Origin: Thermotogae bacterium
Lineage (GTDB): Bacteria; Thermotogota; Thermotogae; Petrotogales; Petrotogaceae
Assembly (NCBI GenBank): GCA_022704305.1
Contig: JAKJGQ010000003.1
Span: forward strand, 1-52,914
DNA length: 52,914 nucleotides
Reading direction: 5' to 3'
Shown here: in pieces, positions 49,529 through 52,756 of the stretch
How positions within the stretch are numbered: position 1 is the stretch's first letter
How the letters are laid out: the number at the start of each line of letters is the position of its first letter
Notes under the pieces: model-generated
Told to the model about the DNA's origin: nothing
Seen by the model: the letters and a program-made list of their open reading frames with translations, nothing else
Databases searched by the model: none
Program-made: the position numbers and the translations under genes

Positions 49529-49585
49529 CTTCTTATGGATGCTGTATCAAGCATAACAATATATTTTGGGTTCCAGGAGGCTGAA

Positions 49586-50449
49586 ATGGATAAAAAAATG
49601 ATTTACAATGAATATATTCTTTCTCTAAGTCCTTCTATTGAGGATGAGGTAACAAGTGCGCTTGTAATGAAAGATTTTCTTGAATTTTATGTGGAGTATG
49701 AAGTAAGCAGCAATCTTACTACGCTTAAGTTTTATACTTCCCTTAATGATCCCAGGCAGGATATTCTTCAGATGCTCACAGGATTTTATGGTCTTGAGAT
49801 ACTCCATCATGAAGTTGTTGAGGAAAAGGACTGGCTTGCAGAATGGATGAAAACCTTAAAGCCTTTTGAGTATGTGCCGGGGGTGTGGATAAATCCTTTT
49901 GCCGAAAAGCAGTTTGAACCCAAGGAAGGCATTGTTCTTAAATTGATTCCAGGAACAGCCTTTGGAACAGGCCACCATGAAACGACAAGGCTCATCGGCA
50001 CAGTTCTGTCAAATATGGACTGCCGAGGGGCAAGTGTTCTTGATGTGGGGACAGGCACGGGGATACTGGCTATTCTTGCGAAAAAAAAGGGGGCGGGATA
50101 CACTCTTGCTCTTGATTATGATCCGCTTGCTGTGGAAAAAGCCAAGGAAAGTATAGAGCTTAACGATGTTCATGTGCAGGTCAGGCAGTCGGATCTTCTT
50201 AAGAACGTTGAAGAAGGTGAGAAATTTGATATTGTTACTGCCAATATTGTTGCGGAGATAATAGTTATGCTTATGCAGGATCCAAAGTTTGAAACTGTTA
50301 TGCAGGATAACGGATATTTTATATGTAGCGGTATAATAAAAGAAAAGGAAAAGATGGTAATAGACGAGGCTATGAAACATGAATTACAGATAATAGAGGT
50401 GGTTGAAGACGGATCATGGGCAGCTATAGTATTTCAGAAAACAGTATAA
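49586..50449 (+). CDS. prmA: Ribosomal protein L11 methyltransferase
   Basis: About 287 residues from ATG 49586, five bases after AGGAGG. An N-terminal ferredoxin-like domain (about 1-60) is followed by WLAEWMKTLKPF, PGTAFGTGHHETTRL, the SAM motif VLDVGTGTGILAILAKKKG, ALDYDPLAVEKAKE and TANIVAEIIVML, all PrmA hallmarks. It trimethylates ribosomal protein L11. The end overlaps the DUF501 gene by 34 nt. Confidence 0.94.
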   Translation: MDKKMIYNEYILSLSPSIEDEVTSALVMKDFLEFYVEYEVSSNLTTLKFYTSLNDPRQDILQMLTGFYGLEILHHEVVEEKDWLAEWMKTLKPFEYVPGVWINPFAEKQFEPKEGIVLKLIPGTAFGTGHHETTRLIGTVLSNMDCRGASVLDVGTGTGILAILAKKKGAGYTLALDYDPLAVEKAKESIELNDVHVQVRQSDLLKNVEEGEKFDIVTANIVAEIIVMLMQDPKFETVMQDNGYFICSGIIKEKEKMVIDEAMKHELQIIEVVEDGSWAAIVFQKTV

Positions 50450-50997
50450 AAATAATTGAAACTCTTATAGGAAGAGAGATCTCCAACTGTATTGAAGTTG
50501 TAAAGACATGTCCTTACGGCATTCCGCACGGTATTCCGCACGGTATTCCGCACGGTATTCCGCACGGTATACCGCAGGTTATAAAAAGTTATCCTCTCAA
50601 GGACAACAAGCCTTTTCCCACACTCTACTGGCTGGTCTGTCCATATCTTTGTGAAGAAGTTGCCAAGCTCGAATCAAAAGGCATGATTACTTATTTTGAA
50701 GAGCTTATTGAAAAAAATTCAGAGTTCAAGAAAAAGATGTTTATGGCTCACTGTACGGAAATAAGGGTGCGTCTTGAGATTTTGGGGGAAGCAATCACAG
50801 ATCTTTCACCTTCCATGCAGAGTAAGATGAGGAACACAGGAATAGGCGGAATAACGGATTTCTCAAAGGTAAAGTGTCTCCATCTTCATCTAGCGTCTTT
50901 TCTTGGCGGACAGGATAATCCGGTCGGCGCAGAAGTTTCAAAGATGATAGACAGTTGCTGCTGCAGCAATTTTGCATGCGAAAAGTATATTAGATAG
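50416..50997 (+). CDS. DUF501 family protein with expanded GIPH repeat
   Basis: 193 residues. ATG 50416 is the only in-frame ATG, inside the end of prmA. DUF501 pattern: IGREISNCIEVVKTCPYG, then IPQVIKSYPLKDNKPFPTLYWLVCPYL, and a Cys/His-rich C-terminus (CLHLHLASFLGG, CCCSNFACE) that could bind metal. Between PYG and PQVI lies GIPH repeated four times plus GIPQ, absent in usual members, where a single G-x-P is found. Function unknown. DUF501 genes often stand near ppx/gppA in other bacteria; here it is between prmA and uvrC. Confidence 0.8.
   Translation: MGSYSISENSIKIIETLIGREISNCIEVVKTCPYGIPHGIPHGIPHGIPHGIPQVIKSYPLKDNKPFPTLYWLVCPYLCEEVAKLESKGMITYFEELIEKNSEFKKKMFMAHCTEIRVRLEILGEAITDLSPSMQSKMRNTGIGGITDFSKVKCLHLHLASFLGGQDNPVGAEVSKMIDSCCCSNFACEKYIR
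50518..50577 (+). repeat. Five 12-bp tandem repeats in the DUF501 gene
   Basis: GGTATTCCGCAC units: the first starts GGC, units 2-4 are identical, the fifth is GGTATACCGCAG. They encode GIPH x4 and GIPQ. The near-identity at the DNA level points to recent slippage expansion that keeps the frame. Confidence 0.95.
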
Positions 50998-51007
50998 GCG
51001 ACGTTAT

Positions 51008-52756
51008 ATGCTGGAAAGAGACCTTCTAAAAAATATTCCGCACAGTCCGGGAGTCTATATTTTCAGGGATTCCAAACAGATTCCTGTTTATGTGGGAAAA
51101 GCCAAAGATCTGAAAAAGCGGCTTTCATCATACTTTAATAAAGCCAATCAGGAAAAGAATGAAAAAGTACTGGATATTGTCAGCGAAGCGGATTTTCTTG
51201 ATTATATACTTACTCTGAACGAGGATGAAGCATTTATTCTTGAATCCAATCTTATTTTTACCCATAAACCGAAGTTTAACGTTCTGCTTAAGGATGCGAG
51301 AGTTTATCCGTATATTTTGGTTACGGGTGAGAAGTATCCCCGTATAACCTATGTACGGAACAAAAATGATATTCAGGGAAGATTTTTCGGACCGTATCCG
51401 GATACAAGGTTTGTAAAGGATTTAATTGAAACGGCGCAGAAGGTTTATAAAATACGTTCCTGTGACAGGAGTATGGATAGAAAATCCAAGCCTTGTTTCC
51501 TTTATCACCTGGGAATGTGTTTTGCTCCCTGTTATAAAGATGTTGACCAGGATGAGTACCGCCTTCATGTGGACTCCATAATAGACTTTCTCGGTGGGAA
51601 CGTTGATGCGATGAAAGAGTATCTTTCGGATGCAATGCTGAAGTATTCGAAGGTTCTTAATTTTGAAAAGGCAGCTCAGATGCGGGATGTGTACTCCAAG
51701 CTTACCAGGCTTTTTGTTCCATTGGGAGTTGAATTTACAAACAGCAGGGATTTTGATGTTATAATGTATGAGGAGCCTATATTTCTACTTCTCAGGATAA
51801 GGAGCGGATATCTGCTCTCCAAGCTTACGTTTACACTTGACGGTAACGTAAATGATTTTCTCCAGCAGTTTTATGTTGTGAGGAACAATGAGGTTCCTCC
51901 GTATATATACACTATGGACGATGTTCAGCCGGAGGAAGATTTAAAGAAGTACCTTTATTCTAAAGGATTGAAAAAAATGAGCAGGCTTTCGCAGGGCGAA
52001 AATCTTTTCAGGCTTGCATTTAAAAATCTTGAAGAGGAGGTTCAAAGATTCACAACAATAGGAAATACTCTTAAACAAGCTAAAGAAATACTTTCTCTGA
52101 GCAAGATACCACAGCGTATTGAAGGTATGGATATATCGCATCTTCAGGGAATGTATACGGTGGCTTCTCTTATAGTTTTTGAAAACGGCAAACCCGACAA
52201 GGAACAGTACAGAAAGTACAGGCTCGATGAATTCAAAGAACCGAATGATTTTGAGAGCATAAGAACTGTTATCAGGAGAAGATATTCAAAACACCCGCTG
52301 CCTGATCTGTTGTTTATAGATGGGGGTAAAGGACAGGTTAATTCTGCTCTTGAGGCTTTAAATGAACTGGGGTTTTCACAAAAAGACGTGGATATAATAG
52401 GAATAGCCAAGGAGGATGAAAGAATTGTATTTCCAGGTGAAGTTCAAGATCTTCATCTAAGGCTTGACCATCCTGTTCTTAGAATGCTCATATTTTTGCG
52501 TGATGAATGCCACAGGTTTGCCATCGGATTTAACAGAAGCCTTCGCAGCAAACGTTTTGAAGATACCAAGCTTAATGATATAAAAGGCATCGGTTCAGTC
52601 CGTAAAAAAGAATTGATGGCAAGGTTTGGCAGCATTGAAAACATAAAAAAGGCTTCTTTCGAAGAAATAAATGAAGTTATATGCAACCGTAGAGTAAGTG
52701 AGGAGATTATAAAGAATTTCGGAGGACATACAAATGGAAACAAAAAAAGCGGCTGA
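51008..52756 (+). CDS. uvrC: Excinuclease ABC subunit C
   Basis: About 582 residues from ATG 51008; a longer TTG-started frame overlaps DUF501. GIY-YIG nuclease (about 5-90: SPGVYIFRDSKQIPVYVGKA), a UVR helix pair (about 200-235, FEKAAQMRDVYSKL), a UvrC RNase H-like nuclease (about 370-510: GMDISHLQGMYTVASLIVFE, LLFIDGGKGQVNSAL) and a C-terminal helix-hairpin-helix (about 535-575, DIKGIGSVRKKELMARFG). It makes both incisions in nucleotide excision repair with UvrB. Only 10 bp follow the DUF501 stop. Confidence 0.96.
   Translation: MLERDLLKNIPHSPGVYIFRDSKQIPVYVGKAKDLKKRLSSYFNKANQEKNEKVLDIVSEADFLDYILTLNEDEAFILESNLIFTHKPKFNVLLKDARVYPYILVTGEKYPRITYVRNKNDIQGRFFGPYPDTRFVKDLIETAQKVYKIRSCDRSMDRKSKPCFLYHLGMCFAPCYKDVDQDEYRLHVDSIIDFLGGNVDAMKEYLSDAMLKYSKVLNFEKAAQMRDVYSKLTRLFVPLGVEFTNSRDFDVIMYEEPIFLLLRIRSGYLLSKLTFTLDGNVNDFLQQFYVVRNNEVPPYIYTMDDVQPEEDLKKYLYSKGLKKMSRLSQGENLFRLAFKNLEEEVQRFTTIGNTLKQAKEILSLSKIPQRIEGMDISHLQGMYTVASLIVFENGKPDKEQYRKYRLDEFKEPNDFESIRTVIRRRYSKHPLPDLLFIDGGKGQVNSALEALNELGFSQKDVDIIGIAKEDERIVFPGEVQDLHLRLDHPVLRMLIFLRDECHRFAIGFNRSLRSKRFEDTKLNDIKGIGSVRKKELMARFGSIENIKKASFEEINEVICNRRVSEEIIKNFGGHTNGNKKSG

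Follow-up and report, generated by a model that had tools for sequence, protein, structure and literature searches.

Why a conserved gene of the DUF501 family should carry five head-to-tail 12-bp units at one point, and what the histidine residues encoded there do, is the question raised by this locus. The window, i.e., the whole stretch of 52,914 nucleotides analyzed, belongs to the draft genome of a Thermotogae bacterium of the family Petrotogaceae (2,041,880 bases, 244 contigs, 80% complete). A previous sequence-only reading had proposed the in-frame enlargement of a single Gly-x-Pro turn, and had left two interpretations side by side: that the array tunes metal binding, or that it arose by slippage and is tolerated in a loop. 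The features on which the argument depends are as follows.

50416..50997, + strand: DUF501 gene, an open reading frame of 193 amino acids (PF04417, E = 1.9e-38), with 34 bp shared with the 3' end of prmA
50518..50577, + strand: five 12-bp units, residues 35 to 54, GIPH x4 + GIPQ (TRF register 50516-50576)
50518..50565, + strand: excess over relatives in the alignment, 48 bp or 16 residues (any four units are equivalent)
50566..50577, + strand: native G-x-P-Q unit of the family, with Gly51 and Pro53 conserved (Pfam match and alignments)

The tandem array in the DUF501 gene

TRF detects 5.1 head-to-tail copies of the 12-bp unit ACGGTATTCCGC at 50516-50576 of the window, with 95% matches and a score of 108, and the second-best array among its 20 rows scores 45. 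Among 200 dinucleotide-shuffled versions of the window, the top score was 77 and the median of the maxima was 45. The units start at 50518, 50530, 50542, 50554, and 50566; unit 1 is GGCATTCCGCAC, units 2 to 4 are GGTATTCCGCAC, and unit 5 is GGTATACCGCAG. They are translated as GIPH x4 + GIPQ, residues 35 to 54 of the open reading frame 50416-50997, and both TRF and this translation agree with the coordinates and the count of five units, three of them identical, in the sequence-only reading. With tandem units beyond chance, a unit length that is a multiple of three, and an open frame, the array is an in-frame coding minisatellite; units of 12 bp are usually termed minisatellites rather than microsatellites.

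No other short-period array scores as high in the 399,814 bases sampled from the same genome (the window and 39 other stretches, about 20% of the 2,041,880 bases). In 400,000 bases of a relative of the same family (G012), units of 20 bp or less score at most 64, and arrays of longer units reach 547. A search of the genome for the unit with up to three mismatches returned the array and one site with three mismatches only, which does not exceed the background set by the reversed-pattern control, with its score of 2. The same array was not found in viral contigs. The sole higher-scoring array in the sampled genome has a 240-bp period in three copies and lies at a contig end (L155:7529-8265, G000 contig C224; score 979). 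Its unit length is also a multiple of three, and it possibly encodes a repeat-domain protein.

Comparison with relatives

The protein matches PF04417 with 131.9 bits, as against a curated cut-off of 23.8 bits, and the match starts at residue 49, just ahead of unit 5, because of the array. The family positions C-x-x-G-x-P, PFPT, CP, KCLH, NPxG, and C...C are all present, as are all 24 invariant columns of a 28-row alignment; no NCBIfam model matched the protein at E 0.001. The gene was found in 58 of 61 genomes (its own and 60 relatives). We read 109 relative loci, i.e., 29 from the 61-genome search and the best 80 of 479 from a genome collection, in which a single protein query had found no relatives and an alignment query found the 479. 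Removal of 5 repeats of identical sequence left 104 non-identical relatives. Those from the DNA scan are mostly Thermotogota.

Counted from just past the Cys32 column up to and including the Pro53 column, the spacing is 5 residues in 103 of the 104 relatives and 21 in the window protein; the remaining relative, L115, starts at a contig end, and this region is therefore incomplete in it. Each of the 27 other rows of the 28-row alignment has a gap of exactly 16 residues at this point. This five-residue spacing is a regularity measured here, outside Pfam's definition of DUF501, and apart from the window protein it is invariant across several phyla. A second unit occurs in none of the 104 non-identical sequences, and a codon pattern describing a tandem pair of G-x-P units with Q-[VI]-I behind it, which covers genes that retain these codons, matched only the source genome out of 103 scanned in the phylum. 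Fixation of the same five units with diverged codons in close relatives, which would have marked an old and stable feature, is not what was found: every relative examined has one unit. In the single congener compared (G001), neither DUF501 nor UvrC has a match, and the one for PrmA is weak and methyltransferase-like (E = 2.1e-5, 34% over 78 residues); the assembly of this congener probably lacks the prmA-DUF501-uvrC region and hence is uninformative on the array within the genus. The array is a real, nonrandom, lineage-specific in-frame expansion, and the proposal that a single Gly-x-Pro turn was enlarged in frame, from the one unit of the relatives to five, is borne out.

Place of the array in the protein

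In the AlphaFold model of a one-unit relative (L003), strands at residues 25 to 31 and 37 to 42 are joined by a short turn, with a pLDDT of 93 to 94 for this block and a mean of 92.2 for the protein. The model of the window protein has the corresponding strands at residues 25 to 32 and 52 to 58, in an otherwise preserved fold (mean pLDDT, 87.6), with residues 36 to 47 between them at a pLDDT under 50; this low value may stem in part from the insert having no aligned rows, besides real flexibility. The order of the strands and the short turn suggest hairpin pairing of the two, and in the models the array appears to lengthen this tight β-hairpin turn into a loop with both native ends kept. A search with Foldseek gave 3 matches for DUF501, none of them with an E value of 0.001 or less, structural comparison gave a Z-score of 2 or more for none of 29 chains, and no sequence relative in the PDB fell below E 0.85.

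Conserved cysteine and histidine residues

The conserved cysteine and histidine residues of the family are Cys32, Cys75, His112, Cys154, His156, Cys183, and Cys188, all of which lie outside the array. Four of them have the following codons.

50509..50511, + strand: Cys32 codon, C in 101 of 104 relatives, three residues ahead of the array
50638..50640, + strand: Cys75 codon (TCP/VCP motif), C in 102 of 104 relatives
50962..50979, + strand: Cys183 to Cys188 codons, C in 98 of 104 (Cys183) and 96 of 104 (Cys188) relatives

Cys154 and His156 are kept in all 104 relatives. On the other hand, Cys32, Cys75, Cys183, and Cys188 are lost together in two of the 104, in both of which Cys154 and His156 are retained: positions 32/75/154/156/183/188 read DDCHVV in L108, from a contig titled Candidatus Endobugula sertula, and GDCHT- in L118, from one titled Halioglobus japonicus. 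Ten other rows depart singly, with a gap at Cys188 in five and Ala or Glu at Cys183 in three; the other two are L028, which has V-I at Cys183/Cys188 in a frame running into a GGDEF domain, and L115, in which the gap at Cys32 is at the incomplete end. The joint loss suggests a single metal site, of which these four cysteine residues are candidate ligands. Since the array starts three residues past Cys32, it could affect this putative site.

Origin of the array

The inner units 2 to 4 share one sequence, from which the outer units depart by one and two bases, as would be expected if the inner copies are the newest. Of 200,000 synonymous recodings of this peptide, with codons taken from the usage of 40 long open reading frames of this one window, only 244 had units with this degree of likeness. 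The codons of the array are all minority codons in the window (GGT, 0.25; ATT, 0.25; CCG, 0.24; and CAC, 0.32). This likeness and the reuse of minor codons make it most likely that DNA was copied, and not that the peptide was assembled codon by codon under selection.

We therefore consider a recent, lineage-specific tandem expansion of the native turn, up to five units and tolerated as a flexible loop, to be probable. Replication slippage or unequal exchange would have copied one 12-bp unit of the native Tyr/Gly-Ile-Pro turn to five. As the unit consists of four whole codons, the reading frame would survive, and tandem copying would spare the native edges, i.e., C-P-Y-G-I-P on the left and G-I-P-Q-V-I on the right; the turn with Cys32 and the strand that follows it are likewise expected to persist. 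The 16 extra residues would then bulge as a flexible loop at the β-hairpin turn and be tolerated there. The copying event was presumably recent and its product nearly neutral. Slippage, with its product tolerated in a loop, is thus the better fitting of the two interpretations offered by the sequence-only reading. What speaks against the expansion is the place that it occupies: the spacing is otherwise invariant and the gene is reported as essential elsewhere, so that tolerance of 16 residues beside a conserved cysteine is not a given. In an excerpt of PMC10166564, DUF501 genes are reported as essential in Corynebacterium diphtheriae, and the same is stated for C. glutamicum and M. tuberculosis.

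A hairpin formed by the DNA of the array, which might have driven the expansion or have a role of its own, is an unlikely alternative. The minus strand as single-stranded DNA folds with a z value of -5.05 relative to dinucleotide shuffles; however, among 1,000 arrays built by permuting the bases of the unit, 143 fold as well or better, and as RNA the z value is only -1.21. Because the permuted-unit control is the fairer one, a special DNA hairpin was rejected as the driver.

Quite unlikely, too, is a contingency-like locus in which the copy number still shifts in the population and adjusts DUF501 activity via the length of the turn beside Cys32. The pure inner units are of a kind prone to slip, the unit length preserves the frame, and the turn adjoins one of the four cysteine residues lost together, all of which would suit such a locus, but in-frame changes offer no on/off switch, and the search with up to three mismatches found no second allele in the genome, which is one assembly with one copy number. 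The fuller form of this idea, in which cells would differ by whole GIPH units and the length of the Cys32 turn would grade the activity of a conserved protein, reported as essential elsewhere, with a candidate four-cysteine metal site, extends the sequence data furthest and is very improbable.

It is no more credible that His38, His42, His46, and His50 of the array bind metal and thereby create or modify a site in the protein, a reading to which we assign a very small probability. Four evenly spaced histidine residues do follow soon after the conserved Cys32, in a fold that bears conserved cysteine and histidine residues. None of the four has a conserved counterpart in any of the 104 relatives, however; the family's own conserved cysteine and histidine residues are complete without these units, which are themselves predicted as a low-confidence loop. 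The histidine residues are moreover explained by the copying itself, since the native codons TAC (Tyr) and CAG (Gln) have the repeated CAC between them. With the array histidines lacking counterparts, the conserved residues lying elsewhere, and the array forming a low-confidence predicted loop, the suggestion that the array tunes metal binding is unsupported. Just as improbable is an artefact of assembly or sequencing, to which a draft of 244 contigs at 80% completeness may be open and of which repeats are a known source (PMC6868369), since the 60 bp are shorter than the usual short read, the unit differences at both edges are hardly the product of a looped assembly, the frame remains open, and no other contig has a different unit count.

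Relation to known systems

The window protein is an ordinary member of the DUF501 family in its full-domain match above the cut-off and in sharing all 24 invariant columns, but it differs in the 16 extra residues at the C-x-Y-G-x-P-Q turn, which are absent from the 104 relatives. According to PMC6749651, prokaryotic satellites are in many cases coding repeats whose unit length is a multiple of three. Like those repeats, the 12-bp in-frame unit encodes an amino acid repeat; it differs in forming a lone short array at a highly conserved turn and not a protein built of repeats. The pe/ppe genes of M. tuberculosis contain in-frame variable-number tandem repeats within coding sequence, as outlined in part of PMC12817950, and the DUF501 array likewise has an in-frame unit that could change in number by slippage. 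In comparison with the repeats outlined there, the host gene here encodes a conserved single-copy protein, and the array is known from the copy number of one assembly. We found no description of a tandem array in DUF501 in the open-licence library searched.

An ordinary repeat expansion thus lies in an unusually invariant place: a turn otherwise constant in length among the members read accepts 16 extra residues beside a conserved cysteine in one lineage. This may be useful for dissecting DUF501, a family that has no solved relative found by sequence or fold and is reported to be essential in Actinobacteria. As a by-product, the joint loss of Cys32, Cys75, Cys183, and Cys188 in two members makes the metal site a testable proposal. 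Among actinobacterial members, Rv1025 of Mycobacterium tuberculosis is linked to DUF501 in the excerpt of PMC10166564, and in M. smegmatis a DUF501 domain is fused to FtsB, as stated in a portion of PMC9846249.

Genomic neighborhood of the DUF501 gene

The gene lies between the following two neighbors.

49535..50449, + strand: prmA-like gene (ribosomal protein L11 methyltransferase), upstream (PF06325, E = 7.2e-60)
50972..52756, + strand: uvrC, downstream (TIGR00194, E = 1.5e-143; PF08459); the coordinates are those of the longest frame, and the start is probably the ATG at 51009

A prmA-like sequence flanks DUF501 in at least 53 of the 109 relative loci, and uvrC is present as well in at least 13; these counts are lower bounds, as the flanks extend for about 1.5 kb or less. 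In one locus of the same family (L005:1483-3519, G018), DUF501 and UvrC, which are separate in the window, occupy one stop-free frame with matches to PF04417 followed by GIY-YIG and UvrC_RNaseH_dom, possibly through an in-frame fusion of the adjacent genes. Another frame of the family (L028:670-1968, - strand, G020) joins DUF501, minus its C-terminal part, to a GGDEF domain, and either a deletion fusion or a misassembly may account for it. At G060:C1:150891-151323, in a genome that is 99% complete, four stops (one TGA, one TAG, and two TAA) interrupt the DUF501 match; the gene is apparently a pseudogene, which counts against a strict necessity of DUF501 in the phylum. Within the window, the 9-mer ATTCCGCAC of the array recurs once at 51035-51043, in uvrC, where it encodes part of NIPHSPGVY; shuffles give an expectation of 0.2 per window, and this second copy is probably due to chance.
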